Source: an uncultured Alphaproteobacteria bacterium
GTDB lineage: Bacteria; Pseudomonadota; Alphaproteobacteria; Caulobacterales; Caulobacteraceae
Assembly: GCA_903912465.1 (NCBI GenBank)
Contig: CAIWHQ010000023.1
Coordinates: 1 to 37,240 of the forward strand
Direction of reading: 5' to 3'
DNA: 37,240 bases
A program made the position numbers and the translations under genes. This document shows positions 419 through 26,160 of the stretch, piece by piece (the stretch's first letter is position 1; the number at the start of each line of letters is the position of its first letter). A model generated the notes under the pieces. That model made no database searches. It was not told the origin of the DNA and saw only the letters and a program-made list of their open reading frames with translations.

Positions 419-1597
419 CTAGAGGCGCAGGACCTGCTTGGCGATGATGTTGCGCTGGACCTCGTCGGAGCCCCCCGCAATGCTGGCCGCCCGGCCCTCG
501 AGGTAGCGCACGATTTCCGGCCGCGCCCAGGCCGGTCCGATGTCCAGCGGGTCCGCGCCCGAGGCCTCCGGGAACCAGGGCGCGGCGTAGGGCCCGGCGC
601 ACTCGACGAAGAACTCCGTCATGCGCTGGACGATGTCCGTGCCCTTGAGCTTGAGGGTCGACGACTGCGCCCCGGGAGCCCCGCCGGCGGCGACCTCGGA
701 CAGGGTCCGCAACTCGGTGATAGCCAGGGCCTGCAGCTCGATCTCGGCCCAGGCGAGGCGACCGGCAAATCCCGGGTCGTCGAGCAGGCCGGTGCCCTCC
801 GATCCTTCCTGCGCCTGCCCGGCCTCGCGGATCCGGCGCGACAGGTCAGTGGAGAGGGAGACGAAGGCCTGGCCGGTCCGCTCGTGGGTCAGGAGGCCCT
901 TGGCGACCGTCCACCCCTCCCCTTCCCGGCCCACCCGGTTCTCCAGCGGGACCCGGACGCCGTCCAGGGTGACCCGGTTGAACATGTGCCTGCCATCGAT
1001 GGAGATGATCGGGTGGACGGTCACGCCCGTCGCGCGCATGTCGAGCAGCAGGAAGGTTATCCCGGCCTGCCGTTTGGGCTCGTCCGAAGTGCGGGTGAGG
1101 CAGAACATCCAGTCCGCGCGATGGGCGCCGCTGGTCCACACCTTCTCGCCGTCCACGACATAATGATCCCCGTGGAGGACGGCCCGCGTCCGGAGCGAGG
1201 CGAGGTCGGAGCCGGCCTCCGGCTCGGAGTAGCCCTGGCACCACCGGACCCGGTCATGGACGATGTCAGGCAGGAAGCGGGCCTGCTGCTCAGGGGATCC
1301 GTAGGCAAAGAGGATGGGCGCCAGCATGCCCATGCCCATGCCCCCGACCTGGGGCGGCAGGCCGGCGGCGGTGACCTCACGCTCCCAGATGAAGTTCTGC
1401 GTGGGGGTCCATCCGGGGCCGCCGAATTGCGTAGGCCACTTGTTGGCCGCCCAGCCCCTGTCGAGGAGAGCCCTGTGCCAGCGGCGCTCATGGTCCCGGC
1501 CCCCGTCATAGCGCTCCGATGGCAGAAAGGTCGCCCGGACCAGGGCGCGGACCTCATCCCGGAAGCGGATTTCGTCGTCCGACAGGCTGAGATTCAT
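419..1597 (-). CDS. Acyl-CoA dehydrogenase
   Basis: Predicted FAD-dependent acyl-CoA dehydrogenase (392 aa from the chosen start), which oxidises an acyl-CoA to the 2-enoyl-CoA and passes electrons to ETF. Visible family features are the N-terminal helical domain beginning LSLSDDEIRFRDEVRAL, the mid-domain flavin signature YSEPEAGSDLASL followed by GEKVWTSGAHRADW, and the C-terminal helix ending IAGGSDEVQRNIIAKQVLRL. The ORF track starts 21 codons earlier at 1660, but the family normally begins right at MNLSLSDDE. The earlier start would also place the coding region across a TATAAT hexamer and dyad at 1617-1634. It is divergent from a MaoC-like gene, so the pair may perform successive dehydrogenation and hydration of one acyl-CoA. 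The substrate cannot be told from sequence. Confidence 0.93.
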   Translation of the reverse strand: MNLSLSDDEIRFRDEVRALVRATFLPSERYDGGRDHERRWHRALLDRGWAANKWPTQFGGPGWTPTQNFIWEREVTAAGLPPQVGGMGMGMLAPILFAYGSPEQQARFLPDIVHDRVRWCQGYSEPEAGSDLASLRTRAVLHGDHYVVDGEKVWTSGAHRADWMFCLTRTSDEPKRQAGITFLLLDMRATGVTVHPIISIDGRHMFNRVTLDGVRVPLENRVGREGEGWTVAKGLLTHERTGQAFVSLSTDLSRRIREAGQAQEGSEGTGLLDDPGFAGRLAWAEIELQALAITELRTLSEVAAGGAPGAQSSTLKLKGTDIVQRMTEFFVECAGPYAAPWFPEASGADPLDIGPAWARPEIVRYLEGRAASIAGGSDEVQRNIIAKQVLRL

Positions 1598-1616
1598 GGA
1601 CGTGCGCTCATGGAGT

Positions 1617-1634
1617 ATTATATCTTTCGTCAAT
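1617..1634 (-). promoter_or_regulatory. Putative TetR operator copy A with overlapping TATAAT -10 element
   Basis: On the minus strand this reads ATTGACGAAAGATATAAT, an imperfect ATTG-N10-(C/T)AAT dyad. It matches copies B and C in the TBDT/MFS intergenic region over TATTGACG-N5-T-W-Y-AAT. The right end is a perfect TATAAT hexamer pointing toward the acyl-CoA dehydrogenase, although no good -35 is seen 16-18 bp upstream. The site lies 19 bp before the dehydrogenase ATG and 37 bp before the MaoC-like GTG, so one bound repressor could control both genes. That the nearby TetR protein is the ligand is inference. Confidence 0.6.
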
Positions 1635-1671
1635 AAAGTCCGCGTTCGGGCGGTGGTCAAGGGAGGCGGGC

Positions 1672-2553
1672 GTGGAGACTGAGGCCTTTACCTTCGAGGA
1701 GCGGGACGGCGTGCTGGCGGGGCCTGTCCGCCGGCCGGTCAACCTCTCCCGCGACGCCTCAGGGTCCATCCATGACGACGCGACGGCCCAGACCCTCGGG
1801 TTCCGGGGCGGGACCGTGGCGGGAAACATCCACTTCGAGCAGTTCCCCCCCCTGGTGCTGGCGCGGTTCGGTGATGACTGGCGGCGGCGCGGGGGGCTCT
1901 CCCTGCACTTCATCACCGCCACCACGGATGGCGAACCCGTCCAGGCCTTCGTCGGGACGGCCGAGACCCTCGCCACCGGCGTCCGCCGGGCGCCCGCCTG
2001 GATGGAGACCCCTGAAGGCGTCCGCGTCTGCGAGGGCACGGCCTGGGCCGGCGGCGAGGATCTCGACTCCGCCCTTCGGCGGCGGGTCGCCCAGCAGCGG
2101 CCCGCGACGGACCTTCGGATCCTTGGGGCCTCCCGGGTCGGGGATGCGGCTCATGACGTCGCCAGCCGCCTGGACAGCGTGACGGCCCTCAGGCGACTGG
2201 AGGGCGTGACCGAGCCCCTTCCGGAGTATCGCGACCCCGCCCTCTTCGGCGGGCTCGTGGCCGCCCCCGCCGTTGCCATCGACGCGCTGCGCGCCGTCGA
2301 GAAGCCGCTGTTCCCGACCGAAGGCGACTATGTCGGCATGTTCGGTGCGATCGAGCTGGAGTTCCTCGACGGTCCGGTCTTCCTGGATCGCGACTACCGG
2401 GCCGACGGCCGGGTTCTGGCCCTGGGCGATTCCCCCAAGACCGAGGTCGCCTGGTACGAGAGCACGCTCCGGGAGGCTTCGAGCGGTCGCCGGGTAGCCC
2501 GCCTCGTCATGATGAGCCGCCTCCTGAAGGCCTCCTCGCGACTCTGGGCCTAG
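1672..2553 (+). CDS. MaoC-like hotdog-fold protein (putative acyl-CoA hydratase)
   Basis: A 293-aa protein with the segment SIHDDATAQTLGFRGGT, which resembles the MaoC/R-specific enoyl-CoA hydratase motif (IHxDxxxAxxxGFxxPIxHG) in spacing and composition. Length and the second half (ITEP-like VTEPLPEY, IELEFLDGPVFL) suggest a double-hotdog arrangement. The start is a GTG with GGGAGG five bases upstream. It is a clear paralogue of the protein at 17583-18533, sharing SIHDD-TA--LGFRGGT near the N terminus and the DGP and RLLKAS-type C-terminal blocks. Divergent with the acyl-CoA dehydrogenase, it would plausibly hydrate the enoyl-CoA made by that enzyme. Whether the unusual motif still supports hydratase chemistry is not known. 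Confidence 0.72.
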   Translation: METEAFTFEERDGVLAGPVRRPVNLSRDASGSIHDDATAQTLGFRGGTVAGNIHFEQFPPLVLARFGDDWRRRGGLSLHFITATTDGEPVQAFVGTAETLATGVRRAPAWMETPEGVRVCEGTAWAGGEDLDSALRRRVAQQRPATDLRILGASRVGDAAHDVASRLDSVTALRRLEGVTEPLPEYRDPALFGGLVAAPAVAIDALRAVEKPLFPTEGDYVGMFGAIELEFLDGPVFLDRDYRADGRVLALGDSPKTEVAWYESTLREASSGRRVARLVMMSRLLKASSRLWA

Positions 2554-2685
2554 TCCTTCCTCGAGGATCAACGGCTTGGGATTCGGGCGATCTGTGGCAA
2601 TATCCACGTCCTGGCCGGAGGCTCCCTTGCCCAAGACCGTCATCGCCGCGAAAGGCCGCCGGGCCATCGGGACTGTTTCAGCGCC

Positions 2686-3303
2686 ATGAGCGGATTCGCC
2701 TCCACACCTCGCAAGCGCATCCGGCTGACGCCCGAGGTGCGCCGAGAGCAGATCCTGGACGAGGCGGCGCACCTGATCCTGGCCGAGGGCCTCCACGCGG
2801 TCAGCATGGAGCGGCTGGCGCGTGAGATCGGGATCAGCAAGGGCCTAGTCTACAACTACTTTCCCACGCGCGACGCCCTGCTGACGGCGCTCCTGAGCCG
2901 GGAACAGTCGGAGTTGCGCGACCGCGGCATGGCCAGCGCCCTCCAGGCCGAGAGCTTCGCCGACCTGATCCGCCAGACCACCCGCCTCTACCTGGAACAG
3001 ACCCTCGACCGGGGTGCCCTGATCGCCGCCCTCCTCTCCGACCCCTCCGTCGCCCTCCTTATGGAGGCGGACAACCGCGCAGACCGGGATCGGACCGTCC
3101 GGTACTTCGTCCGCGCTGCGAGACGGGAGTATGGCCTACCTCTGCCGGTGGCGATCACCGGTATAGAAATGGTCTCCGCGGTCACCGACCGGGCCGGGCG
3201 CCTGGTGGGCGATGGCCAGCTCGACGTCGAGAGTGCGACCGAGATGTGCGTCGCCCTCATCACCGGCGGCCTGGCGGCCCTGCGGCGGAACCTGGGGTCC
3301 TGA
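2686..3303 (+). CDS. TetR/AcrR-family transcriptional regulator
   Basis: A 205-aa one-component regulator. Residues about 14-60 form the TetR helix-turn-helix: RREQILDEAAHLILAEGL, then MERLAREIGISKGLVYNYF, followed by the usual PTRDALLTALL. The remaining alpha-helical part is the ligand and dimerisation domain. It lies between two divergent gene pairs whose promoters share an 18-bp dyad, and its 3' end abuts the MFS gene tail to tail with a 3-bp gap. No copy of the dyad is evident in its own upstream region (2554-2685), so autoregulation is not supported. The inducer is probably an acyl-CoA or the transported compound, by analogy with FadR/PsrA-like TetR proteins (inference). Confidence 0.93.
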   Translation: MSGFASTPRKRIRLTPEVRREQILDEAAHLILAEGLHAVSMERLAREIGISKGLVYNYFPTRDALLTALLSREQSELRDRGMASALQAESFADLIRQTTRLYLEQTLDRGALIAALLSDPSVALLMEADNRADRDRTVRYFVRAARREYGLPLPVAITGIEMVSAVTDRAGRLVGDGQLDVESATEMCVALITGGLAALRRNLGS

Positions 3304-3306
3304 TCC

Positions 3307-4782
3307 TCAGGCACCGGGACCCGGCCCTGCCCCGGACGTCCGGGCGCGAAGAGAGGCGGCGATGGCCGCATGCCGGGCCCGGGTGATCCCGTAAGAGGCG
3401 AAGATGACCATCGAGGCCACGGCGATCACCGCAGGGATCGGTCCCCAGACCATGACAAGGCGCGCCTGGACCTCGTTCGGAAGCACCGCGCCCGCAGCCT
3501 GGCCGATATCCCTTGGGAAGCGGATCAGATCCAGGGCGACGCCGGCAAGAAGCACCCCGATGCCCACGGCGGCCTTGTTGGCGAAGCCGAGGCCTGCGAA
3601 GTAGATGCCCTCCCGACGTCGCGCGAAGAGGTGTTCGTGCTCGTCGGCGGCGTCCGCCATCATCGAGGGATAGGCGACGCTCACAAGTCCGATTCCTATG
3701 CCGGCGACGAAGGAGTTGAGCTGCATGGGCGCCAGGGCGGCCTGCCCGACGGGCGCGTAGAGGCCCGCCAGCCAGGTGCCCTGCATCACCAGCCAGTTGG
3801 CGATCAGCAGGGAAAGACCGACCAGGACCACGGTCTTCTTCTCCAGCCGGGCCTGGACCCGCGGGGCGGTCCCCACCCCGAGAAGCAGGCCGACGACGAA
3901 GGCGTAGGTGATGAACTGCAGGGACTCGCTCTTCAGCAGCCAGACGAAGAGAAACGAATGGCTGTTCAGCGTCGCGTTCAGGCCCTGGGCCAGGTAGGTG
4001 ACCAGCGCCGAGACGAAGAGCAGCCGGAACGACCGGTTGGCGAAGATCTCCCGCACCTCGGAGGGAAGCCGCCGCCACATGGGCAGGGGCGCCAGGTCAG
4101 GCTGCGGCAGGGCCGCAGCGTACCTGAGAAGGCCCAGGCAGCAGGCCGTCATGCAGGCGAACAGGATGGCGCCGGCCGCCCACCCGAAACCGGGATAACC
4201 CTCGGCGCGCTGCAGTCCCCCGTTCGCAAAGAAGGCGCTGTAGCCCACTGCGGTGATCGCCAGGCCGGCCAGGACCCCGGCGGCGGACCGGTAGACAACG
4301 ACGCTCGTCCTCTCCGCATAGTCCGTCGCCAGTTCCGCCCCGAGGGCCACGTACGGCACATGGAACAGGGAGATGGCGGCGCGCCCCGCCACCGAGAAGA
4401 TGACGAGCCAGGCGAACAGGAGTGGCTGGGACAGGTCCGCGGGCGGCGAGAACAGCAGGCCGACGCTGACCACCGTCGGCAGGATCGCCGCCATCATCAG
4501 CGGAAGGCGGCGACCCAGCCTCGACTTGAGGTTGTCCGACCAGGACCCGATGAAGGGATCCACCACCGCATCAAAGGCCAGCCCGATCGCCAGGGCCGCC
4601 CCCACCAGGGCGCCTGAAAGGCCCAGGACGACGGAGTAGTAGAAAAAGACGAACCCGACGGCCGTGTCGAAGCCGCCGGACTGCGCCGCCTGGCCCAGGC
4701 TGTAGAAGACTTTCTGTCCGATCGTCGGTGACATCGATCCGGCCGCTGCGGCGTCCCTGGCGGGAACATCGGATGAATCCAT
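3307..4782 (-). CDS. MFS transporter, GPH (MelB-like) cation symporter type
   Basis: A 491-aa polytopic membrane protein with about 12 hydrophobic segments. Diagnostic for the glycoside-pentoside-hexuronide:cation symporter branch are DPFIGSWSDNLKSRLGRRLPLM after helix 2 and the later PYVALGAELATDYAERTSVVVYR block. GPH members in Caulobacterales and sphingomonads are often paired with TonB receptors and are not restricted to sugars. It is divergent from a TonB-dependent receptor, so the two probably move the same compound across the inner and outer membranes. Its ATG lies 17 bp downstream of operator copy B, so repression by the convergent TetR gene product is likely. The substrate is unknown. 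Confidence 0.88.
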   Translation of the reverse strand: MDSSDVPARDAAAAGSMSPTIGQKVFYSLGQAAQSGGFDTAVGFVFFYYSVVLGLSGALVGAALAIGLAFDAVVDPFIGSWSDNLKSRLGRRLPLMMAAILPTVVSVGLLFSPPADLSQPLLFAWLVIFSVAGRAAISLFHVPYVALGAELATDYAERTSVVVYRSAAGVLAGLAITAVGYSAFFANGGLQRAEGYPGFGWAAGAILFACMTACCLGLLRYAAALPQPDLAPLPMWRRLPSEVREIFANRSFRLLFVSALVTYLAQGLNATLNSHSFLFVWLLKSESLQFITYAFVVGLLLGVGTAPRVQARLEKKTVVLVGLSLLIANWLVMQGTWLAGLYAPVGQAALAPMQLNSFVAGIGIGLVSVAYPSMMADAADEHEHLFARRREGIYFAGLGFANKAAVGIGVLLAGVALDLIRFPRDIGQAAGAVLPNEVQARLVMVWGPIPAVIAVASMVIFASYGITRARHAAIAASLRARTSGAGPGPGA

Positions 4783-4799
4783 GGCGCATGCCCCTACCT

Positions 4800-4817
4800 A
4801 TTGACGGAGTCTTCAAT
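4800..4817 (-). promoter_or_regulatory. Putative TetR operator copy B
   Basis: The site reads ATTGACGGAGTCTTCAAT, a dyad with 5-bp arms ATTGA/TCAAT and an 8-bp centre. It is the most symmetric of three related sites and lies 17 bp before the MFS start codon, in the 139-bp region shared with the divergent TonB receptor. Size and symmetry are typical for TetR-family operators. Binding is inferred from repetition and position. Confidence 0.62.
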
Positions 4818-4851
4818 TGTGCTTGACGGTCCCCCGCGCCTCCATCTAGCT

Positions 4852-4869
4852 ATTGACGTTCATTACAAT
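4852..4869 (+). promoter_or_regulatory. Putative TetR operator copy C
   Basis: The site reads ATTGACGTTCATTACAAT, with arms ATTG/CAAT, and shares TATTGACG-N5-TWYAAT with copies A and B. Its right end contains TACAAT, which could be the -10 hexamer of the TonB receptor gene 52 bp downstream, as copy A contains TATAAT. Two copies 34 bp apart in one intergenic region suggest cooperative or dual control of the divergent transporter genes. Confidence 0.6.
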
Positions 4870-4921
4870 CAACATGCTGGCGGACAAGGGAGAGCCTCCC
4901 GACGCCGGAGGGGAGTGCGAG

Positions 4922-7264
4922 ATGCGAAGCTACCGGTCCGCCGCCGTCGCTGCGGTGTCAACGATCGCCCTGATGGCCGGCGCGCCCGCCGCAGCCGATT
5001 CCACCAACCAGATCGAAGAGCTGGTTGTCACTGCCCAGAAGCGGGAACAGAATCTTCAGGACGTACCGATCGCCGTGAGCGCATTCTCCGAAGCCGCCCT
5101 GGACCGGGTGCAGATCGAGGACGCCACGGACATCCAGCTTTCGATCCCCAACGCCGTCCTCACCGGCAATGACCGCTTTACGCTACGCGGGGTGGGTAAC
5201 AACGCCCTGGCCGGCGTCGACCCCGGTGTGCCGACCTTCTTCAACGGCGCGGCCGTCGGCTACCCGCCGCAGAACGAGTATTTCGACGTCGCCCGCATCG
5301 AGGTCCTGAGGGGCCCGCAGGGCACCCTCTATGGCCGCAACACCACGGGTGGGGCGATCAACATCATCTCTCGGAAGCCAGGGTCCGAGTTCGGCGGCGA
5401 GGTCAGCCTCCAGGCCGGCAACTACGAGAACATCCGCGTCGGCGGGGCGGTCGACCTGCCGCTCGGCCAGGTCGCAGCCATTCGTCTGGCGGGCTACTCC
5501 CTCGACCGCAGCGGCTATACCCGCAACGAGGCGACTGGCAACGACGTCGACGGCCGGAACCAGTGGGGCGTCCGGGGCTCCCTGGTTCTGGACCTTGGCG
5601 ACCGGACGGATGCGACCCTGGTGCTCAGCCGCTTCGAGGAAGACAGCTCACGCGCGCGGGAAGGCAAGCGCCTGTGCAAGGCCCATCCGGTCCTGGGCTG
5701 CGACCCGACGGTCCTGGGCTTTGACTCTCCTGACGCGAACACCACGATCCTGCAGACCCTGTCGCGCATCTTCACGCCCTTCCCAGCGGGCGGGAACATC
5801 TATGCTGGTGCCCCCAATCCCACGGACCTTCGCCGGATCGCCGCCGACACGGACCCGACCTACACGGCCGAGCAGACCGCCGCCTCGCTCGAGTTCAACC
5901 ACGACTTCGGCCAACTCACCCTGTCGGCCGTCCTGGGCTACTCGGAGTTCTCGACCGAGCAGAATACCGACTGGGACAACGCCGACCTGCCGTTCCGCTT
6001 CACCCAGCCGATCACCTACTTCAAGGATCGCGAGACCCAGGTCACGACCAACCGTCTTCTGACCACCGACAGCTTCACCTCGCGCGGCGACACCAAGACG
6101 GGCGAACTCCGCCTGGCCTCGCAGTTCGAGGGGCCCCTCAACTTCCTCATGGGCTATTTCGGTGCCCAGGGAACCAGCTCCGGCGGCTTCGAGACCTGGC
6201 ACCCGGCGATTGAGTCCTACCAGAAGGCCCTGGGCCGGCCGGCGGAGACCTGGCGGGTGTCGTCCCTCACCCGCAATGGCAAGAACCAGACCTGGGCGCT
6301 TTTCGGCGAAGGCTACTATGAGGTGACGCCGGACATCCGCCTGACGGTGGGCCTCCGGTATACCGAGGAGGAACGCTCAGGCGAGAGCCGCTCCATAGTG
6401 CTGTCCGGGCTGAACCCCTGGGCCTACGCGAAATTCCAGGGCCAGAAGACCACCTACAAGGTCGCGGCGGACTGGTCGCCGGACCTCTCCTTCACGGACA
6501 AGACGCTGGTCTACGGCTCCGTCTCGACCGGCTACAAGGGCGGCGGGCAGAACGCAAACGCCACGGCCCCGACCTTCGGTCCCGAGACCGTGACGGCCTA
6601 TGAGGTGGGAACCAAGAACCTGCTCGCCGACGGTGCCCTGCAGGCCAACCTGACGGCCTTCTTCTACGACTATACGGGGCTGCAGCTGGGCCAGCGGATC
6701 AATGGCGGTGTCGTCACCCGGAACGCCGACGCCGACATCTACGGGATCGAGGGTGAGTTCATCTATTCCCTGGGAGAGAACTGGCTGTTCGACGCCAATC
6801 TCTCGCACCTGCATACCCGGATCGGGACCTTCCTCAGCGAGGACGCCGCCAACCCCGCGCAGAGCCTGACGGCCACCACGCCCACGGTGCGGATCAATCT
6901 CGAGGGCAACGAACTGCCGCACTCGCCGGGCTTCAAGGCCAAGGCGGGGGCCCAGTACCAGGCGGCGCTCGGGACCGGCGACTGGATGGCGACCTTCCGG
7001 GTCGACGCCACCTGGCAGGACGCCTACTACGCCCGGGAGTACAACACCCCCACCGACCGCATCGACGCCTGGGGCGTGATTGACCTGCAGTTCCGCCTCG
7101 AGAACGACCGCATGGGCCTCGGCGCGCGGCTGTTCGTGAAGAACCTCACCGACGATGACAACATCACCAACATCATCATCGAGGACGCCCTGATCGGCCG
7201 CTACCGCAACGTGCGCCTGCTGGAGCCCCGGACCTACGGCGTCATCCTGCAGAAGCGGTTCTAG
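4922..7264 (+). CDS. TonB-dependent outer-membrane receptor
   Basis: A 780-aa receptor for active uptake across the outer membrane. It has a signal peptide (MRSYRSAAVAAVSTIALMAG, cleaved near PAAA-D), a TonB-box-like IEELVVTAQKRE stretch, a plug domain with VEVLRGPQGTLYGRN-type signature (here IEVLRGPQGTLYGRN) and a C-terminal beta-barrel ending in aromatic KRF. The ORF track begins at a TTG at 4853, inside operator copy C. The ATG at 4922 is preferred because of GGAGGGGAG six bases upstream and because the signal peptide begins there. It is divergent from the GPH transporter and belongs with the acyl-CoA module. The ligand is unknown; this SusC-unlike, Caulobacter-type receptor family takes many substrates. 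Confidence 0.93.
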   Translation: MRSYRSAAVAAVSTIALMAGAPAAADSTNQIEELVVTAQKREQNLQDVPIAVSAFSEAALDRVQIEDATDIQLSIPNAVLTGNDRFTLRGVGNNALAGVDPGVPTFFNGAAVGYPPQNEYFDVARIEVLRGPQGTLYGRNTTGGAINIISRKPGSEFGGEVSLQAGNYENIRVGGAVDLPLGQVAAIRLAGYSLDRSGYTRNEATGNDVDGRNQWGVRGSLVLDLGDRTDATLVLSRFEEDSSRAREGKRLCKAHPVLGCDPTVLGFDSPDANTTILQTLSRIFTPFPAGGNIYAGAPNPTDLRRIAADTDPTYTAEQTAASLEFNHDFGQLTLSAVLGYSEFSTEQNTDWDNADLPFRFTQPITYFKDRETQVTTNRLLTTDSFTSRGDTKTGELRLASQFEGPLNFLMGYFGAQGTSSGGFETWHPAIESYQKALGRPAETWRVSSLTRNGKNQTWALFGEGYYEVTPDIRLTVGLRYTEEERSGESRSIVLSGLNPWAYAKFQGQKTTYKVAADWSPDLSFTDKTLVYGSVSTGYKGGGQNANATAPTFGPETVTAYEVGTKNLLADGALQANLTAFFYDYTGLQLGQRINGGVVTRNADADIYGIEGEFIYSLGENWLFDANLSHLHTRIGTFLSEDAANPAQSLTATTPTVRINLEGNELPHSPGFKAKAGAQYQAALGTGDWMATFRVDATWQDAYYAREYNTPTDRIDAWGVIDLQFRLENDRMGLGARLFVKNLTDDDNITNIIIEDALIGRYRNVRLLEPRTYGVILQKRF

Positions 7265-7306
7265 GCGGACGCTGAAACGTCCCGGTGGGCGCCCGTGGAG
7301 CCGTCC

Positions 7307-7617
7307 TCAGGTGCTGGGCTTCCCCGCACCTGCCGGTCCCGCAGGAGCCCAAGAGTCCCTCTCGACCACGAGTCGGTAGCCGTCGGCGTCGACCAAGGTG
7401 CGACCGCGCTGGTCCCAGTAGGGATTGAAGGACGGCGTCACCCGGAACCCCGCCGACAGGAGGGCCGCGCATCTGCGCGCCCAAACCTCCCGATCCGGGA
7501 CGTAGACCACCAGGAGGTCCTCCGGCGTCGGCGTCGGCTGCACGGGATGATGGCGGTGGACCGTGAACCCGAAGGGGTGGCCTGCGCCGGGCGGGCGATC
7601 CTGAGGTGGGTGGGCAT
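7307..7617 (-). pseudogene. VOC (glyoxalase/dioxygenase superfamily) gene, internally deleted and frameshifted
   Basis: A start-like ATG at 7617 opens MPTHLRIARPAQ, the typical first strand of small VOC proteins, but that frame then turns into low-complexity Arg/Ser sequence. In another frame directly after it, HPFGFTVHRHHP-VQPTPTPEDLLVVYVPD and then PSFNPYWDQRGRTLVDADGYRLVV read as the normal C-terminal half of the same family. A complete member is about 125 aa, so about 45 residues between the two parts are missing and the frame is broken. The ORF track shows only the intact tail (7307-7543). Loss of the middle removes part of the metal site. A functional short form starting inside the tail seems unlikely. 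Confidence 0.72.
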
Positions 7618-7813
7618 GGCGGGAGAAGGGCTGCAGGGGCGGGGCGGGCGCGAGTTTCTACGCCCGTCACACCTTAGCCCCGGGAAGGGGGCCGGCCCGG
7701 GTCCTGGCGCGGCGTCTTCCGGGCCCATCGAAGGGCGTTCCCGACATTACGCATTGCATCCGGCGACGACTTCCATGAACCCTGACCCCCGGATCGAGAT
7801 CGGAGGGCGCGAC

Positions 7814-8791
7814 ATGCGGACGGCGAATCTGAACGGCCTTGGGGAGGTCAGCCGCCTGAGCCTGGGTGGCGGGATTGGCCAGATCTGGGGGGAGACCCCG
7901 CGGGAGGAAGCCCTGGCCACCCTTCACGCCGCCGTCGAGGCCGGGATCACCCTTATCGACTGCGCGCCCATGTACAACAACGCCGAACGGTTCATCGGCG
8001 AGGCCTTCGGGGGCCGCCCGCCGCCGGGGGTGAAGTTCACCACCAAGCACCAGCTCGGATCGCCCGGGCCCGGCGCGGCGGCGGCGGCCCTGGAGGCCTC
8101 GGTGGACGCCAGCCTCGCCGCCATGCGCCTTGAGCGCATCGACCTCTTCTTCCTGCATTCCAACCTGCACCGGGACGGGTACGCCTACGCCTTTGGCGAG
8201 AGCGCCAAGGCCCAGTTCTCGACCGCCCTGTCGATCTACGTCGAGGAGGTCATCCCCGCCATGGAGGCGCTGAAGGCCAAGGGCAAGATCGGGCAGTGGG
8301 GGGTCACCGGGATCGGCGTTCCCGACGCCGTGCTGGACGCCGTCGCCCATCCGGTCCGCCCCTCGGTGGTGCAGGTGATCGCCAACCTCCTGGATAGTCC
8401 CGGCGCGCTGAAACGCTATGCCGAGCCCGCCCGCCCGCGGGAGATCGCCCGGACCGCCAAGGCGGCGGGCCTGGGCGTCATGGGCATCCGGGCGGCGCAG
8501 GCCGGTGCCCTGACGGCAGCGGTTGACCGGGAGCTTTCGCCCAACAGCCCCGACCGGCGCGACTATGAGCGGGCCGCCCCCTTCCGGGCCCTGTGCGCCC
8601 GCTGGGGCGTGGACCCCGCCTACGCGGCCCATCGCTACGCCCTCTCCCTGCCCGACTTCGACCTGGTGGTCCTGGGGGTCAAGAACCGTTCGGAACTGTC
8701 CCTCTGCCTGAAGGCGGAGGCCGATGGGCCCTATTCCAACGCGGAGATGGCGGAGATCGACGACCTGGGCCTTCGGCCGACGGGGGCGTGA
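7814..8791 (+). CDS. Aldo/keto reductase
   Basis: A 325-aa NAD(P)H-dependent oxidoreductase of the AKR superfamily. Numbered from the chosen start, the catalytic tetrad is visible: Asp49 (LIDCAPMY), Tyr54, Lys78 (FTTKHQ) and His115 (LFFLHSN). The N terminus MRTANLNGLGEVSRLSLGGG is the usual AKR opening strand. The ORF track extends far upstream through non-protein-like sequence; the ATG at 7814 has GGAGG seven bases before it, while the ATG at 7775 has no comparable site. Active-site residues point to a soluble cytoplasmic reductase or dehydrogenase of aldehydes, ketones or sugars. The substrate is unknown, and no link to the neighbouring TonB receptor is shown beyond orientation. Confidence 0.9.
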   Translation: MRTANLNGLGEVSRLSLGGGIGQIWGETPREEALATLHAAVEAGITLIDCAPMYNNAERFIGEAFGGRPPPGVKFTTKHQLGSPGPGAAAAALEASVDASLAAMRLERIDLFFLHSNLHRDGYAYAFGESAKAQFSTALSIYVEEVIPAMEALKAKGKIGQWGVTGIGVPDAVLDAVAHPVRPSVVQVIANLLDSPGALKRYAEPARPREIARTAKAAGLGVMGIRAAQAGALTAAVDRELSPNSPDRRDYERAAPFRALCARWGVDPAYAAHRYALSLPDFDLVVLGVKNRSELSLCLKAEADGPYSNAEMAEIDDLGLRPTGA

Positions 8792-8815
8792 GGCCCGGTC
8801 GAGAGGGGAAGCCGT

Positions 8816-8844
8816 GCAGGACGGGTGGCGGTGCGGGCAGTCGG
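8816..8844. repeat. Direct repeat copy 1 flanking the helicase-nuclease gene
   Basis: A 29-bp sequence with core GGGTGGCGGTG that matches 26 of 29 positions with 13860-13888 in the same orientation. The two copies bracket a 5-kb segment containing one gene. No integrase or transposase is present. It could be an attachment-site or excision scar, or a dispersed intergenic motif; the third core copy near tRNA-Ser leaves both possible. Confidence 0.6.
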
Positions 8845-8899
8845 TGGCGAAGGGGTCTCGGGTTTGATCCGTCGGACTAGGTATGGAGCACGAGCCTTA

Positions 8900-11800
8900 T
8901 CAGGCTGGCGCTCTCAGCCTCCCAAGATGGTCGCGGGCCAGTTTTGGAAGCAGACGCTCAGCAAGCGCGTCCTCGATTGCCGAGCGAATATCCGGCCCGG
9001 TGCGGGCAAACCCCAGAAGCCGGGCGGTCTCCATGATGAGTTCCGCCTCCGTCATGGAAAGGTTTTCCTGCAGGGCGTGGCGAGCTGCGGCCTCGAATTC
9101 GACGGGCGCGATCATCGCTGGCTTGCGCACCGTGTCCGAGGCGGCCAGTTGCCCACGGTCTCTCCCGAAGATCGTAGCGCCGGGCAGACTCCAGAAATCG
9201 CCTTCAGACGACACTTCACCAGACCGTTCGCAGTTCCGGAGCGCCTGAAGCGCCGTCTGTTGGACGACGTTGCCTGCACGCTGCAGTCCACAAATCGCGG
9301 CGAGCCGGCGACCCGCCTCCTCCGAATGGATGGGGTGTTCCTGCTCCACGATGCGGAGCATCCAGGCCGCGACCTGGGCGAGGCCAAAATCCTGCGGTTT
9401 GGTTGCGCCGTTCGCCACGCGGAACTCGGCCTTCAGGTAAGGATCAAGACGATGAGGTCCGGGAGACGCGTCGAACGTCCCGTCACCGGCATTACCGTCT
9501 ACCTGATTGTGATGATCCTCTTCCGGATCCGACGCCTGTGGATCATCGGATGTCGCCGGCCGTTCACCTGCAAGTGCCGCCTGGATCGCCTCCCGGATTC
9601 TCTCGATCTCGCGCTCGCGCTTGTAGAACCAGTCCGTTGACCAGATGCGATGCAGCCGCCAACCCCGGTTCTCAAGGATCATCTGCCGCAAACGATCCCG
9701 GTCCCGGGCGTAGCGGGAGGAGTGGTAGGCCATCCCATCACACTCGATACCGAGCAGATAGCGACCCTCGTCTCGGGGATCGATGACGGCAAGATCGATG
9801 AAGAAGCCGGCCATGCCAACCTGCGGCCGCACATCAAACCCAAGGCCGCGCACAGCCTGCGCTACGTCTTCCTCGAATGGAGAGTCGAACCCCCGTTCGG
9901 TCTCCATGGCGACAGCCGTGTAACCGTCCTTGGCGAGCTTCAGGAACTCCTTCAGGGCGCGGACGCCCGGCTTGCTGGCACCATCGAGCCGAATGTCCTC
10001 GGCTACGATCGAGGAAAACACCTCGCACCGCTTCCGGGCGCGGGTAATCAACACGTTCAGGCGGCGCTCGCCGCCGTCACGCCCCACCGGTCCGAAGTTC
10101 TGGGTGAGTTTCCCGTTGGCATCCCGTCCGTAACCCACGGAAATGAAGATGACGTCCCGCTCGTCGCCCTGGATATTCTCCAGGTTCTTGATGAAGAGCT
10201 CCTTTCGGTCGCCGGACGGCTTCATCAGAGCCTCAAGATCCGGGTGCTTCCGGGCAAGGTCGTCGATCTGGTCGCGGATGCAGTCACGCTGTGCGACCGA
10301 AAAGGCGCCGATGCCGAGGGACAACTCCGGGTGCCGCCGCGCATGTTCAAGCGCCGCCTTTGCGATCAGACCCGCCTCGACTTCATTTCGCGCTGTCTTG
10401 CCACGCTCATAGCCACCCTCGGGTACAGGCCTGAAGACGAGGCCGGTATCCCCGTCCGTCGTCCCGGCGACGATTGAGGGCGGCAGCATGAGTTCGCCGC
10501 CGTAGAAATTTCTGTTCGAGGTTGCGATCAGTGCCGGATGCTCGCTGCGGTAGTGCCACTTCAGCATCCGCGACGGGAATCGCGGTGCGCAGAGATTCAG
10601 GATGCTCTCAACATCCTTGATGACCGCCTTGCGGGGCGCGCCTGCAGGTGCGTCATCCTCTTCATCATCCGGACCTTCATCATTGATGATGCGGTTGAAG
10701 AAGTTGGTCGGAGGCAACTGACGGTCATCACCCACGACCACGAACTGCCGGCAGCGCGCGATTGCGCCGAGGGCATCCTCGGGACGCACCTGGCTCGCCT
10801 CGTCGATGACGAGGAGATCAAATTCCAAGGACATCGGCTGCAGATACTGGGCAACCGATAGCGGGCTCATCAGGAAAATGGGTTTGATGCGCTGCACCGC
10901 TTCGCCAGCCTTCAGCATCAGCTTCCGCACAGGCATATGATTGCGTTGCTTCCTGAGCTCATCGGCAAGGATACCCATCGCACCCGAAGAACCCGTCGGG
11001 CGCCGGTCGATATGGGCTCGGGAGACCTGGTCCGAAGCCAGCCGAATCCGGTCTTTATCCGCAGTCCTGAAACGCTTGACGAGCCGATCGAGTTCATCCC
11101 CCAGCACTTCGCCAAGCTCCGGATTCTGTGAGCGAAGTCGATTCCACTTCGCCTCGAAGATCGCCAGGGCAAGGATCGGCTCGAGCTGAGCGGGTGTGAC
11201 TTCACCGGCGTAGGCGCCGTCTGCAAGCCTAGGACAACCGAGCTGCCGAACCCAACTCAAGCCGTCCCGCGCCGCAGTCCAGTCAACCAGGAACTCGAAC
11301 TTCTCGGACCACTGAATCGCCGTCGCAAGCAGGAGCTCGCACGGAACCCCCCGCAGGTCGGCCCCCTCGAAGGCAAGATTTAGGTCCAATTTCAAGGCTT
11401 CGACTGCATCGCCGAAGGCGGCCTCCGCAGCCTCGCCTGCATGCCCAAGGCGATCCGCGAGGTCCTGAGCCTCTGAGGAAGGGAGCAACGGAAGGCGGAT
11501 ACCGACGACCTCTTCCGCATGAACCAGTCTCGGCAACCAGGCGGCCAGTTCCGCCAATCGCTCCCAATCCGACTGGAGGCCCCGCCAGTGCGTCCCAAGC
11601 ACCGGTCCTATACTTTCACCAACCGATAGGATCGTGGCGCGGACCTGCTTGAGCTCAATCAGGGCGTCGAGCTTTGCCAGACGGACCCGATTTTGTCCCG
11701 GCCAGGCACCATTCCAGTGTCCGCGGACTTCTGCGATGGCATCTCTGTATGGCTTCGAGAGAAACCTGAGGATTGAGCCGCCGCGGCCCGCGATTTCAAC

Positions 11801-16746: not shown

Positions 16747-17586
16747 TCATCCCAGGCTCTTCGCATACGTGATCACTGTGTCCGCGATCAGCTGGGGCTG
16801 TTCTGGAAGCATGGCGTGACCGGCGTTGGGCGCCTCGATTACGGAGACCTGGGCGCCGAGCTCCTCCTTGAGGATCTGGGCGTTCGCCGGTGGGGCGAGG
16901 ATATCTTCCCGGCCCTGGATGACCAGGATTGGCCGCCCTCCCGCCTTCCACCAGAGCTCGACGGGAGTCTGTTCCGACGCGTGCAGCTGAGCGCGGGCCA
17001 CATCAGGCCACCACCCATCTCTCCAGGGAGACGCATCATTGCCCGGCGCAAAGAACGCCTTGCCGACCGCCTTCATCCGGACCTCGACCGGAAGGGAGAG
17101 GTCAAAGCACTGCAGAAAGATTGGCTCGATTTCCGGCGCCATCCGCACTCGACCTCCCGCAGCAAGGAGGATCACAGCTCGCACGCAGGATGGGTGGAGG
17201 CTTGCAAGGCGACGAGCGACGCGATTGCCGAAGGCGTGTCCGACCACGATTGCCGGCTCGGCGGAGACGTCATTCAGGGCGGCAAGGACGTCCCCCGCGA
17301 GATCATCCAGGCGCAGGGCCTGCATCGGACCCCGACTCTCCCCGATACCCCTAGGCTGGGGAGAGATGGCCCGGAAGCCCGCCCTGGACACCGCCGCAGC
17401 CAACTGGTCGAAATCCTCCGCGCCACGTCCGAGAGAGGGCAGAAAGACAACAGGCGCGCCGCGCCCCGCGACTCGATAATGCAGAATCACCTCTCCCGAA
17501 CGCACCGTTCGGCCCTCCCCTCCCCGGGCGGCGCCAGCGAGGCCGGCGCCTAGGAGCCCGCCATTCAGATCTCTGCGCGACATCAT
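16747..17586 (-). CDS. Alpha/beta-hydrolase-fold protein lacking the Ser nucleophile, Tat-like leader
   Basis: A 279-aa alpha/beta-hydrolase-fold protein. The oxyanion-side strand VVFLPSLGRG, the elbow VVGHAFGNRVAR, an acid-position Asp in QGREDILAPP and the catalytic-position His in NAGHAMLPEQP are visible. The nucleophile position of GHSxG is Ala (GHAFG), so ordinary Ser-hydrolase chemistry is not expected. Some family relatives share this elbow, so it is probably a real branch rather than a mutation. The N terminus SRRDLNGGLLGAGLAGAARG looks like a short twin-arginine signal. The start codon overlaps the stop of the MaoC-like gene (ATGA), indicating translational coupling. Possible roles are C-C or haloperoxidase-like chemistry, a lyase, or binding. 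Confidence 0.82.
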   Translation of the reverse strand: MMSRRDLNGGLLGAGLAGAARGGEGRTVRSGEVILHYRVAGRGAPVVFLPSLGRGAEDFDQLAAAVSRAGFRAISPQPRGIGESRGPMQALRLDDLAGDVLAALNDVSAEPAIVVGHAFGNRVARRLASLHPSCVRAVILLAAGGRVRMAPEIEPIFLQCFDLSLPVEVRMKAVGKAFFAPGNDASPWRDGWWPDVARAQLHASEQTPVELWWKAGGRPILVIQGREDILAPPANAQILKEELGAQVSVIEAPNAGHAMLPEQPQLIADTVITYAKSLG

Positions 17587-18533
17587 CCCGACGCGCCCTC
17601 ATATTCAGGATAGCCGGGGAACGAGGCCTTCAGATAGGCCTGGTTCAATAGCTGGGTCGCCACGAGGTGATCGGTTCCGGCCCTGTACACGGAAGTCTGC
17701 ATCCAGAGGCTCTCCGTCCGGCGGCTGCCGCTCATGGCGATCATTGTCCGCTCGACTTCATATGGTTCCCCGACCAACAGCGGGCCGTCAATGAGACGAA
17801 TCTCCTGGTCGGCGAACAGACCGACAACTGGGTTCCGGACGGGGATCGGTTCGTCGGCGATGGTGTACTGGCACAGGACGCTGATCATCTCGAAGGGAAG
17901 GATCGGACGCCGCCAGGGTGTCTCGGTGGCCGATGCCGGATCGTAGGCGGGAGAAGGTTCCGTTATGCTCTGCAGCTTCTCCCGCAGGCTGAAGGGGTAG
18001 AGTTCGCCCATGTTCTGGTTGAACTCCATCACTACCTGACGACGCGGTGTCTTCGCGCCCACAACAATGTCGGCCAGGATCCTGCGCTCCCGAAGAGGCT
18101 CAAGTTGGCCCAGTCGGAGGTCTAGCGCCGTCTGTCCATGGTCAGGCCCGAGGGAGATCGTCCCGCGAAGCACCTCCACGCCGTCACGCTTGAGGACCTG
18201 AACCTCAGCCCTCCGGGGGTCGCGCTCTAGTCGGATCTGGGCCTGCGTCTCCTCACCCTCGAAGCAGGGAGCCCGGTAGTGGGCGGAGATGCAACCCCGC
18301 GCGAGGAAGTCTTCGCCCCAGATCCGCACACCGAGGGGCGCGAGCAGGCTGAAATGAGTGGGGCCCTCAATCGTTCCGCCGCGAAATCCCAGCTTGCTCG
18401 CTGTGTCGTCGTCGTGGATCGACTTGTGCCCATCGTAGGACTGCGCGGTCAGCATGTTCCGTGGCGACCGCCAGGGGCCGACAAGCAGACCATCGGGCTT
18501 GGCTTCGATCGGCGTGTTGAAGAGGAGAGACAT
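17583..18533 (-). CDS. MaoC-like hotdog-fold protein (paralogue of 1672-2553)
   Basis: A 316-aa protein with SIHDDDTASKLGFRGGTIEG near residue 40, the same MaoC-hydratase-like motif as its paralogue in the acyl-CoA module. A second homologous half carries SITEPSPAYDP, IRLIDGPLL and LNQAYLKAS. ATG 18533 has GGAG five bases upstream and gives a sensible N terminus; the ORF track adds 25 upstream codons. The gene sits between a sulfatase (84-bp gap) and the alpha/beta-fold gene (4-bp overlap), so it is firmly in the operon. The likely role is hydration of an enoyl-CoA or binding of the CoA-linked intermediate. The function is inferred from motif only. Confidence 0.72.
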   Translation of the reverse strand: MSLLFNTPIEAKPDGLLVGPWRSPRNMLTAQSYDGHKSIHDDDTASKLGFRGGTIEGPTHFSLLAPLGVRIWGEDFLARGCISAHYRAPCFEGEETQAQIRLERDPRRAEVQVLKRDGVEVLRGTISLGPDHGQTALDLRLGQLEPLRERRILADIVVGAKTPRRQVVMEFNQNMGELYPFSLREKLQSITEPSPAYDPASATETPWRRPILPFEMISVLCQYTIADEPIPVRNPVVGLFADQEIRLIDGPLLVGEPYEVERTMIAMSGSRRTESLWMQTSVYRAGTDHLVATQLLNQAYLKASFPGYPEYEGASG

Positions 18534-18617
18534 ATCGGCTCCGGCTGGGTTCAAGTTCCGCCTTGGGTCGGAGCCGCGGCGGATCCACTCCACCCAGACC
18601 CCGTCCAAGCCTTTGTA

Positions 18618-20111
18618 TTAATTGAAGAGTTGAACCTTTCGTCCGTTGACTTCGATGCTGAATTGACGGCGACTTGTGTACATCGGTGCGATGTTGGAGG
18701 CGTCCCAGGCCGCAAAGCGCCGCTTCAGGTCTGAGACGACTTCGGGATGGCGGGCCGCGACATCGACGGTCTGCCCAGGGTCGACTCGAATGTCATAAAG
18801 CAGCGTGTATTGGCCGAGCGGTGAGACCGGCGCAGGCACCCCGTCAGGCACAGGTCTTCCGACAAGGCTCTCCGGATCCTCTGCAGTCTCCGACTTGTTG
18901 ACCACAACGAGGCTCCAGCGATCGGTCCTGACGACGTGATTGGGGCCCATGCGCCAGAAAAGGGTTCTTTCGGCTCGGGCCCTCCCCCCGGACCCCATCA
19001 GACGGACGAGGTCGAGCCCCTCTGCGGCCTTCGGCGTCTGAGCACCGGCAACCGCCGCGATGGTCGGCAGGATGTCGAGGGACGAGACAGGACGATCGCT
19101 GACACTGGGCCTCAGCCTGGCCGGCCAGGACATGATGAACGGAACGCGGATTCCACCGTCCCACGGCAGGGCCTTGTGCCCGGAAAGAGGGGCGTTCGAA
19201 CAAGCGCCACGAATGTAGAAGGGACATCCATTGTCGCTCAGGAACACGACAAGGGTGTTATCCCTCTGGCCTGTGGCCTCTAGGGCCTTCAGAAGCCGAC
19301 CGACACCGTCATCCAGTGACGAAACCATCGCCGCGTAGACGCGGTGATGGGTGTCACCAATGTTTCGAAAGCGATCCAGGTAGGCATCCGCCGCCATAAG
19401 CGGCGTATGGGGAGCTGTGTAGGCCAGATAAAGGAAGAAGGGTGCGTTTCGCTTCCGGGAGACAAACTCCACAGCCTCGTCGGTGAACCTTTCTGTCAGG
19501 TAACCCGGCGCCTCGATAACCTCCCGGCCTCGATAGACCGGCATCCGGTTCCGGCTAAAACTCTTTAGGTCAGCGGTCAAAGCGACTTCATCCGCGGGGC
19601 CAGGTCCAGGCTCTGGAAAGTAGGAAGTTCCGCCGTCAAGGACCCCGAAGAAACTCCCGAAGCCCCGGTCCAAGGGATGATATCCGGCCGCCTTTCCGAT
19701 GTGCCACTTCCCGACCATTCCGGTTTCATAGCCTCGGTCGCTGACCAGGGCCGGGATCATCACCTCGTTCCGGGGAGGTCCGACGCTCTCATCTCGCCCG
19801 ACAGGATTGAACTCGAAGCCGAAGCGGGTCTGGGCGCGCCCGGTGAGCAGGCCGGCGCGCGACGGTGCGCATACCGCGGCGGTCACATACCCATTCGTGA
19901 AGCGGACGCCAGACCGAGCCAGGGCGTCAATATTCGGCGTCGGTATACGGCTGCCCTGGGCGCTGATGTCACCATAGCCGAGATCATCCGCAAGGATGAC
20001 CACCACATTGGGTCGCGTCTCAGCCGCCATTGCACCTCCGGTCGCCACCGCTTCAAGGGAGAGGGCGCCAACAATGGCCGCAAAGCTCGCGGCGAGAGGT
20101 CGCATCAGCAT
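18618..20111 (-). CDS. Exported sulfatase (Cys-type, S1 family)
   Basis: A 497-aa arylsulfatase-like enzyme with an N-terminal signal peptide (about residues 1-30, ending AMAA). It has metal ligands in VVVILADDLGYGD and the formylglycine motif CAPSR with Cys81, followed by AGLLTGR. GKWHIG, the paired HTPL histidine segment (APHTPLMAAD) and a DNG metal site (LSDNGCPF) are present. The Cys must be oxidised to formylglycine, presumably by the enzyme encoded at 28656. AAGGTGA lies six bases before the ATG. It follows another sulfatase by 100 bp in the same operon. The aglycone is unknown, and no carbohydrate enzymes accompany it. Confidence 0.94.
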   Translation of the reverse strand: MLMRPLAASFAAIVGALSLEAVATGGAMAAETRPNVVVILADDLGYGDISAQGSRIPTPNIDALARSGVRFTNGYVTAAVCAPSRAGLLTGRAQTRFGFEFNPVGRDESVGPPRNEVMIPALVSDRGYETGMVGKWHIGKAAGYHPLDRGFGSFFGVLDGGTSYFPEPGPGPADEVALTADLKSFSRNRMPVYRGREVIEAPGYLTERFTDEAVEFVSRKRNAPFFLYLAYTAPHTPLMAADAYLDRFRNIGDTHHRVYAAMVSSLDDGVGRLLKALEATGQRDNTLVVFLSDNGCPFYIRGACSNAPLSGHKALPWDGGIRVPFIMSWPARLRPSVSDRPVSSLDILPTIAAVAGAQTPKAAEGLDLVRLMGSGGRARAERTLFWRMGPNHVVRTDRWSLVVVNKSETAEDPESLVGRPVPDGVPAPVSPLGQYTLLYDIRVDPGQTVDVAARHPEVVSDLKRRFAAWDASNIAPMYTSRRQFSIEVNGRKVQLFN

Positions 20112-20211
20112 GAATCACCTTGTTCGACAGAACGGATTGAATGGGGTGGAGTCACCGCCCGCAGATTTCGGCGCACTCGGCTCAGGAGAGTTTGACGGCT
20201 TGAAGACGCCG

Positions 20212-21663
20212 CTACTGGTCGTGGAAGACGACCCTACCGCAATGGAAGACCTGGAACCCCGTTGTCGGCGCCCAGGCAGGCGGCTTCATTTCCGACTGCC
20301 ATGCCTTAAAACGGGCTTGGAGGGCCTTGGTGCGATCGGGGTTTTCGAACATCAAGTTCCTTGTCTCAAGCGGGTCCTGCTTGAGATTGAACGTCCAGGG
20401 AAAGCTATTCGGACGCGTATTCGACATCAGTTTCCAATCGCCCATCAGAACTGCAAACTCGGCTCCGGTCCTCCAGAAGAGAGCGTCGTGGATCGGGCTC
20501 CTGTCACCCTGTACCCGGGGAGTGAGGTCAACTCCGTCCAGGGGCTTGTCCGCCTCCACGCCCGCCGCCTGCAGAATGGTGGGATAGAGATCCAGGTGGG
20601 AGACATTGCGGTCGTCCTGCCGCCCACGGGGCCATTTTCCGGGCCAAGAGATGATGTAGGGCACCCTCGGTCCACCCTCGTTGTAGCTCAGCTTGCCGCC
20701 ACTGAGTCGGGTGCAGTCCGAGATGCCGAAGTAGGTCGCGGCGCCATTGTCGGAGGTAAAAATCACAATCGTATTGTCGGCGATCCCTGCGTCCTCAAGC
20801 GCTTTCATGACTCTTCCGACACCATCGTCGAGGGCGCTGACCATGGCGGCATAGGTCCGCTTGAGCGGATCCTTCTCCCGCTCAAACCGATCATAGTACT
20901 TGCGGGAGGCTTGAAACGGACTGTGAGGCGCCGAGTAGGCGAGATACATGAAGAGGGGCTGGTCCGCCGCCCGCTGCCTGCGGATCTGCCCCACAGCCTC
21001 AGCAGTGAGAGCATCCGTCAAGTACTCGTCCTCGTTGCGGATCGGTTCCCAGCCCGCCGCTCCTTTGCGCCAACGGCCGACTTGGGTGGACTCGGCCTCC
21101 CGTCGGAAACTCCGTTCCCCGACATAGGGTGCCGCCTGATTCACCACATCAGGCGCCTCCGGATTCATGTAGGAAGTCTCACCGCCGAGGAAGCCGAAGA
21201 ACTCGTCAAACCCCCGAGATGTCGGAAGCCGATCGGCCGTGATACCCAGGTGCCACTTGCCGATGCCGACCGTGCGATAGCCAGAGGCCTGCAGCCTTTC
21301 CGAGACCAGGGTCTGTCCGGGCTGCAAACCGCCATCTGGCTGCCGCGGGCTTGAGGGCGCAAGATAATCGAAGCCGAAACGCTGCGGGTACTGGCCTGTC
21401 AGAAGGCCTGCACGCGAGGGGCTGCATACATTCGCTGTGGCGTATCCCCGTGTGAATTTCACCCCCCTGGCGGCAATTCGATCGATGTTGGGGGTCGGGA
21501 TAGCGGACGGATATCGATAGGTGCTGAGGTCGGTCGTGCCGAGGTCATCGGCCACAATCAGGATCACATTGGGCCGGGCAGTGGTCGCTCCCTGCGCTGC
21601 CGCGATCCCCGGTGATAAGCTCATGACAGTCGCCGCCAAGAGAGCGATGGATCCGACCTTCAC
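20212..21663 (-). CDS. Exported sulfatase (Cys-type, S1 family), operon leader
   Basis: A 483-aa sulfatase and the first gene of the minus-strand operon. The start is set to GTG 21663: GGAGGAG lies six bases upstream, and the product then begins VKVGSIALLAATVMSLSPGIAAAQ, a clean signal peptide, whereas the ORF-track start would add a charged 14-residue leader. Motifs are ILIVADDLGTTD (metal), CSPSR with Cys80 followed by AGLLTGQ, GKWHLG, APHSPF and FTSDNGA. The upstream 223 bp are shared with the divergent GntR regulator and hold an 18-bp dyad. It probably acts in the periplasm on a sulfate ester imported by the neighbouring TonB receptor. Confidence 0.93.
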   Translation of the reverse strand: MKVGSIALLAATVMSLSPGIAAAQGATTARPNVILIVADDLGTTDLSTYRYPSAIPTPNIDRIAARGVKFTRGYATANVCSPSRAGLLTGQYPQRFGFDYLAPSSPRQPDGGLQPGQTLVSERLQASGYRTVGIGKWHLGITADRLPTSRGFDEFFGFLGGETSYMNPEAPDVVNQAAPYVGERSFRREAESTQVGRWRKGAAGWEPIRNEDEYLTDALTAEAVGQIRRQRAADQPLFMYLAYSAPHSPFQASRKYYDRFEREKDPLKRTYAAMVSALDDGVGRVMKALEDAGIADNTIVIFTSDNGAATYFGISDCTRLSGGKLSYNEGGPRVPYIISWPGKWPRGRQDDRNVSHLDLYPTILQAAGVEADKPLDGVDLTPRVQGDRSPIHDALFWRTGAEFAVLMGDWKLMSNTRPNSFPWTFNLKQDPLETRNLMFENPDRTKALQARFKAWQSEMKPPAWAPTTGFQVFHCGRVVFHDQ

Positions 21664-21702
21664 CTCAATCTCCTCCCTGTCATGACGCCGTTTATGTGTC
21701 TG

Positions 21703-21720
21703 CACTAATCAATCATAGTG
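21703..21720. promoter_or_regulatory. Candidate GntR operator, CACTA-N8-TAGTG dyad
   Basis: CACTAATCAATCATAGTG has perfect 5-bp arms and an 8-bp centre, and lies 40 bp upstream of the sulfatase start in the region shared with the GntR regulator. On the minus strand it contains TATGAT, a -10-like hexamer for the sulfatase operon. No second copy was noticed upstream of the TonB receptor, which weakens the case. Confidence 0.35.
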
Positions 21721-21886
21721 TCTCCGGTTTTGACAAGTTCAGGTTTTGTGGTTTGTTGCCAGAGGGGATCACGCTTGCCCGAACCGGGAAGTCCGGGTCA
21801 GAGACGTGGACGAGCAGCGAATTTACAAAGCGCCCTTGCTCGATAGGCTCAAACCGGACCAGGAGCACTGAGGCTTGCAGGCAGAC

Positions 21887-22621: not shown

Positions 22622-22641
22622 GTTTCCTCGCCCAAGACCAC

Positions 22642-22688
22642 GGCTCCGAGTGAACCACCCCAAGACCTGAGCGGTCTTGGGCGGAGCC
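22642..22688 (+). terminator. Nested hairpin after the GntR gene (terminator-like)
   Basis: A perfect 9-bp stem, CCCAAGACC/GGTCTTGGG with loop TGAGC (22659-22681), is immediately enclosed on its 3' side by CGGAGCC, which pairs with GGCTCCG at 22642-22648. A second CCCAAGACC at 22631-22639 could compete for the same GGTCTTGGG. There is no T-run, so it is a weak intrinsic terminator at best. It separates the regulator from the TonB receptor operon. Confidence 0.5.
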
Positions 22689-26108: not shown

Positions 26109-26160
26109 GTTCCAGGTTCCAAATTCGCGACCATGAGGGGAAGGCAGAAGGAAGCCGAAG

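Follow-up and report, generated by a model that had tools for sequence, protein, structure and literature searches.

KstR-, FadR- and FasR-type proteins of the TetR family control acyl-CoA enzymes of lipid catabolism and do so from operator sequences other than the one described below. In Escherichia coli, the TetR-family repressor GusR (UidR) controls gusABC, a set that combines a glycoside transporter with a hydrolase, by way of two operators at the main promoter from which it is released by the glycoside (PMC9881133). In Ruegeria pomeroyi, the TetR-family repressor BetI1 acts on choline and choline-O-sulfate genes through the box ATTGACG*CGTCAAT, defined by DNase footprinting and electrophoretic mobility shift assay (EMSA) (PMC12442346). 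Here, we analyzed 37,240 nucleotides from an uncultured member of the Caulobacteraceae (contig CAIWHQ010000023.1; this whole stretch is called the window), in which three copies of a dyad precede genes for transport and acyl-CoA metabolism in the neighborhood of a tetR gene. Judged by their sequence and distribution, these dyads very probably serve as operators for the TetR-family product of the gene at 2686-3303, which would control the uptake and breakdown of a galactoside together with an acyl-CoA side branch.

GusR/UidR is the closest working analogue: like the proposed circuit, it joins a TetR-family repressor to a transporter for glycosides and has two operators at its main promoter. Of its traits, the window has a GPH-like symporter and paired operators, whereas hydrolases (GH36 and GH42) occur only in relatives; on the other hand, the GusR/UidR system has no TonB receptor or acyl-CoA enzymes, and it acts on glucuronate where galactose is the sugar here. 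A PDB sequence comparison of the window's TetR returns UidR as one of several weak relatives (E 2e-6). The kinship is that of the TetR family in general; the two are likened by their working, and we do not file the protein as a member. For BetI1, the half-site ATTGACG is identical to the half-site here, which means that a TetR-type protein is known to read it; however, the BetI1 arms stand 6 bp apart compared with 10 here, and the genes and the ligand are others. Membership in BetI was rejected because the helix-turn-helix of the window's TetR scores far below the cut-off of the BetI profile TIGR03384 (E 5e-10; 39.2 bits against 201.3), and no bet (choline) genes were found among the annotated regulon genes. 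The KstR/FadR/FasR-type profiles likewise give weak helix-turn-helix matches, all below curated cut-offs, and in contrast to those systems the locus has a sugar-type transporter, with glycosidases in its relatives.

Putative operators in the window and its genome

The features on which the argument turns are the following.

419-1597, minus strand: acyl-CoA dehydrogenase (Pfam Acyl-CoA_dh N, M and C; best NCBIfam match pimC_large, well below cut-off)
1616-1635, minus strand: putative operator A, TATTGACGAAAGATATAATA, in the intergenic region of the divergent acyl-CoA dehydrogenase and MaoC-like genes (exact pattern match)
1672-2553, plus strand: MaoC-like double-hotdog protein, labeled from its predicted fold
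2565-2647, plus strand: decayed, frameshifted remnant of a GH42 beta-galactosidase, residues ~556-590 (profile match in sense frames)
2686-3303, plus strand: TetR-family regulator, the proposed operator binder (TetR_N Pfam E 3e-14; the regulator common to motif-bearing loci)
3307-4782, minus strand: MFS_2/GPH-type (sugar:cation symporter) transporter (Pfam MFS_2 E 1e-65; TIGR00792 gph E 2.5e-38, below cut-off)
4799-4818, plus strand: putative operator B, TATTGACGGAGTCTTCAATT, upstream member of the pair at the MFS/TonB-receptor promoter (exact pattern match, conserved)
4823-4828, plus strand: TTGACG, a -35-like element between B and C (from the alignment; present in loci L088 and L090 too)
4851-4870, plus strand: putative operator C, TATTGACGTTCATTACAATC, downstream member of the same pair (exact pattern match, conserved)
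4922-7264, plus strand: TonB-dependent outer-membrane receptor (Pfam TonB barrel and plug)

An earlier note on this DNA had claimed three dyad copies, and all of them are present: the 19-bp pattern TATTGACGNNNNNTWYAAT (TATTGACG-N5-TWYAAT) occurs with no mismatch at 1617-1635 (minus strand), 4799-4817 (plus) and 4851-4869 (plus), against a chance expectation of 0.05 in the window even with up to two mismatches, and none of 100 shuffles reached three copies. A scan of the whole genome (2,697,523 bases in 391 contigs) returned exact copies at these three sites only and none for the reversed control; with three mismatches, it gave 70 matches, the three window sites included, compared with 24 for the reversed control. 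The octamer TATTGACG does recur without its second half in a sulfatase gene, as the note had said, at 19925-19932 (minus strand), one base from the position first given. The full element is a 20-bp imperfect palindrome, TATTG-N10-YAATA, whose symmetric 20-mers lie at 1616-1635, 4799-4818 and 4851-4870. Its strict form is matched genome-wide just by site A and by C288:4429-4448, B and C each being one mismatch off. This fourth site, TATTGATTGTTGTTTCAATA, found by a looser scan of the same genome, lies ~92 bp before a PhyH gene and, with its flanks, has matching seven-base arms (TTATTGA...TCAATAA). Because the operon for PhyH, an aldo-keto reductase (AKR) and a hydrolase has the same site in relatives, the strict consensus proposed earlier missed a regulon member. 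The description of the sites as flanking tetR is also loose, since A precedes the MaoC-like gene, with 1.05 kb between it and the downstream tetR, and B and C lie beyond the MFS gene.

Within the TetR protein, the TetR_N helix-turn-helix (PF00440) covers residues 23-69 and scores 53 bits against a cut-off of 24. The MaoC-like protein at 1672-2553 has no sequence match in Pfam, NCBIfam or PDB; its AlphaFold model (predicted local distance difference test score, pLDDT, 89.9) finds its best PDB fold matches in mesaconyl-CoA hydratase and MaoC-like dehydratases (E 6e-11). A second MaoC-like paralogue at 17583-18533 (minus strand) is 30% identical to it, has no Pfam match, and lies near an AMP-binding (acyl-CoA ligase type) gene. 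Sulfatase-like genes number at least three in the region 17583-29582, which also encodes a sulfatase-maturing (FGE) enzyme, a GntR/FCD regulator, a second TonB receptor and hydrolase-like proteins; it contains no full dyad copy and probably forms a catabolic island of its own, directed at a sulfated compound.

Conservation of the sites and co-occurrence with tetR

The relatives compared are mostly metagenome assemblies, the closest in Phenylobacterium; 149 genomes were scanned with a slightly relaxed pattern, and 4-17 kb around 26 tetR orthologues (50-99% identity) were compared as loci. The base counts over 43 sites are not used as evidence because sites found with the pattern itself have inflated information content. 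Three places keep the site while adjoining bases drift: the promoter of the acyl-CoA dehydrogenase and MaoC-like genes, that of the MFS and TonB genes, and the PhyH operon. The position of operator A is conserved in relatives that have both the acyl-CoA dehydrogenase and the MaoC-like gene and a tetR of the 10-bp spacing (N10) type. Chance, or shared ancestry of unconstrained intergenic DNA, might be invoked since the closest genomes are similar throughout, but the site letters persist, as far as another family of the order, amid intergenic DNA that diverges around them, and the relaxed pattern gives 44 matches in Phenylobacterium against 1 for the reversed control; all but one of the 44 (the exception is in G058) precede genes of one set. 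At the sequence level this explanation is already refuted, and we regard its probability as negligible.

The motif also follows the regulator across genomes: 18 have both a tetR orthologue and the motif, 9 have tetR only, 1 has the motif only, and 62 have neither, with a Fisher p of 2e-11 that is indicative only, as the genomes are related rather than independent and the value overstates the evidence. The PhyH gene offers a better test of this association because it is sometimes unlinked from tetR. For example, PhyH is on contig C16 and tetR on C6 in G055, and the PhyH site is still present. The site before the PhyH operon occurs where most N10-type tetR genes are present, whereas among the PhyH-positive genomes in which no tetR orthologue was found (G047, G062 and G064), two are without the site and one has a decayed copy, G064 keeping a site with one mismatch. 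Two conditions under which the earlier note would have been refuted were examined in silico, and both outcomes favor it: the genome has no further exact copies of the pattern, and conservation next to orthologous tetR genes is strong, with loss or decay where tetR is missing.

These data bear on the idea that a different regulator encoded elsewhere, such as a BetI-type TetR protein, binds the dyads. The footprinted BetI1 half-site (PMC12442346) and the many TetR paralogues in these genomes speak for it, but the ATTG/CAAT arms of the BetI box have the shorter spacing given above, the motif tracks this particular tetR, which is the regulator common to the loci, and the site is missing or decayed in the three PhyH-positive genomes without it; such a regulator is therefore improbable. 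In loci of other families of the order with TetR relatives of 37-38% identity (L088 in G146, L097, and L117 in G141), the motif also occurs outside regulon genes, and a wider TetR subfamily may share this half-site.

The more distant tetR genes (50-62% identity) are accompanied by a palindrome whose center has one extra base, giving 11-bp spacing (N11), in the intergenic region between the acyl-CoA dehydrogenase and MaoC-like genes, as in TATTGTA-N7-TACAATA of L080 and L085; arms 11 bp apart were observed in this intergenic region in L079-L080, L082-L085 and L091. The recognition helix of the N10-type orthologues reads ISKGLVYNYF or VSKGLVYNYF, and the N10/N11 split fits one change on the tetR tree.

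Several observations weigh against assigning the dyads to this TetR and to galactoside use. Branch support for the single change on the tetR tree is weak (34/71), and in G014, a genome of the N11 type, the recognition helix is identical. Among the nine genomes that have tetR and lack the exact motif are some with the more distant, N11-type tetR genes, and G011 has no site before PhyH. In the window's genome no match to GH42 was found; the sugar branch is absent from the window locus, where the substrate may differ. Nevertheless, the sites, their conservation, the gene set and the co-occurrence with tetR are read directly from the DNA, and they lend strong support to the probable TetR regulon that the earlier note had proposed. 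In a separate observation, the L086 locus of Phenylobacterium sp. J367 (G011; 866-9238) has tetR, GH42, the acyl-CoA dehydrogenase, MaoC-like and MFS genes all apparently split by frameshifts, which may be long-read assembly errors rather than decay.

Paired sites at the TonB receptor promoter

A distance of 52 bp separates B from C in 12 of 14 loci, and the other two have 51 and 53 bp; L090 (52 bp) and L088 (53 bp) come from a different family of the order. Between them the locus alignment shows a conserved CTTGACG, its TTGACG starting 24 bp after the start of B, and a TAnYTA-like hexamer follows 17-18 bp after this TTGACG. We read the two hexamers as the likely core promoter of the TonB receptor, which would place B just upstream of the -35-like element and C on the predicted start site. 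This arrangement is relevant to the possibility that the repeat itself is a sigma-factor promoter element, with a -35 TTGACG and a -10 TATAAT or TACAAT, rather than an operator. This possibility is favored by the likeness of the repeat's TTGACG to the -35 consensus of sigma-70 and by the TATAAT in the right half of A, and the earlier note had labeled the right halves of A and C as -10 boxes. However, the two hexamers of the repeat are 5 bp apart where ~17 are needed, no -35 lies at the proper distance, the element is palindromic, a separate TTGACG is conserved between B and C, and the promoter scan called no promoter at the repeats. The T-W-Y-AAT letters are, moreover, kept at every site as part of the dyad, and the orientation of the site relative to the PhyH gene varies between clades, as expected for an operator and not for a promoter element. 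The -10 labels find no support; PhyH orientation and the promoter scan led us to discard the right halves as sigma promoters, and a promoter element in place of an operator is very improbable.

Sugar genes in relatives and the proposed circuit

Relatives have these sites before further genes as well, namely GH36, GH42, tetR itself and the genes of a complete galactose-oxidation operon. For example, in G024 and G050 operator A precedes a close-packed array of MaoC-like, GH36, GH42 and tetR genes, with overlaps of four bases each between GH36 and GH42 and between GH42 and tetR in G024; being last in this array, tetR would be autoregulated. An SDR dehydrogenase, an SMP-30 lactonase, an IlvD/Edd dehydratase, DgoK and a 2-dehydro-3-deoxy-6-phosphogalactonate (KDPGal) aldolase (PRK09140, 268 bits against 207) stand in a row, which we take to be a complete oxidative galactose route, downstream of the TonB receptor or, in loci that have lost the receptor, immediately after the B/C pair. 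De Ley-Doudoroff operons have the same row; here, in contrast, it lies behind putative TetR operators, is linked to GH36/GH42 and acyl-CoA genes, and is absent from the window. The window group appears to have once had more of this set. A remnant of GH42 lies in the 132-bp gap before tetR, where relatives have the intact gene, and recurs at the same residues and place in sister genomes; in four genomes, 0, 2, 3 and 6 of 600 shuffles matched as well, although in sister L064 the match is not significant (238 of 600). This remnant points to loss. The earlier proposal of one pathway behind an acyl-CoA/TonB module is therefore sound as to the regulon and too narrow in scope, as relatives add glycoside hydrolases and the galactose-oxidation operon: the module is only the part surviving in this small genome.

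The dyads could be TetR operators of a regulon for a lipid, steroid or terpenoid acyl-CoA substrate, with the relatives' sugar genes as secondary additions. Acyl-CoA dehydrogenase, MaoC-like, PhyH, AKR and hydrolase enzymes are the only ones remaining in the window, and loci with tetR genes of 60-65% identity have a narrow acyl-CoA dehydrogenase/MaoC-like/tetR core in common. On the other hand, the transporter belongs to a sugar-symporter family, several genomes have GH36 and GH42 within the operon, flanked by the MaoC-like gene and tetR, and the window group bears the mark of a lost GH42. We consider a lipid-type substrate somewhat unlikely, and a galactoside the better reading.

For a galactoside regulon, we infer binding, repression, autoregulation, inducer and substrate as follows. 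A TetR dimer would bind the 20-bp imperfect palindrome, with arms TATTG and CAATA 10 bp apart, and would repress the divergent units acyl-CoA dehydrogenase/MaoC-like(-tetR) and MFS/TonB receptor as well as the PhyH-AKR-hydrolase operon in another part of the genome. The core promoter of the TonB receptor would be enclosed by two dimers at a distance of 52 bp, or about five helical turns: one immediately before the -35-like TTGACG and the other over the predicted start site. As last gene of the operator-A operon, tetR is probably autoregulated, and a galactoside is the probable inducer, either as such or by way of its aglycone or a product of its breakdown. In the fuller regulon of relatives, the TonB receptor and the GPH symporter would import the compound, GH36 and GH42 would release galactose, the SDR, lactonase, IlvD/Edd dehydratase, DgoK and KDPGal aldolase would oxidize it, and the PhyH, AKR, hydrolase and acyl-CoA enzymes would handle the remainder. 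The window lineage would have lost the hydrolases, its GH42 gene being gone, and kept uptake and the acyl-CoA/PhyH branch.

A search of a literature collection with few subscription papers did not find this regulon described in Caulobacterales, or any TetR/GH42/TonB regulon; the regulon is new, the circuit of a familiar kind. We tentatively suggest, as a possibility held with less than even confidence, that one TetR regulon joins uptake and hydrolysis of a galactose-bearing conjugate, full galactose oxidation, and PhyH/AKR/acyl-CoA degradation of the non-sugar part, in an undescribed Caulobacterales pathway. Its substrate would be a glycosylated natural product of lipid- or terpenoid-like character, and the pathway would have been partly dismantled in the window's Phenylobacterium lineage. 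The change from N10 to N11 spacing is a possible natural case of a half-site spacing shift between clades of one regulator. With the operators assigned as proposed, an anonymous TetR and its acyl-CoA gene set become a regulon whose operator is precisely defined. Gene functions can then be predicted in a few dozen environmental genomes, and a still unnamed catabolic pathway would become directly accessible by way of its growth substrate, its inducer and an EMSA probe.

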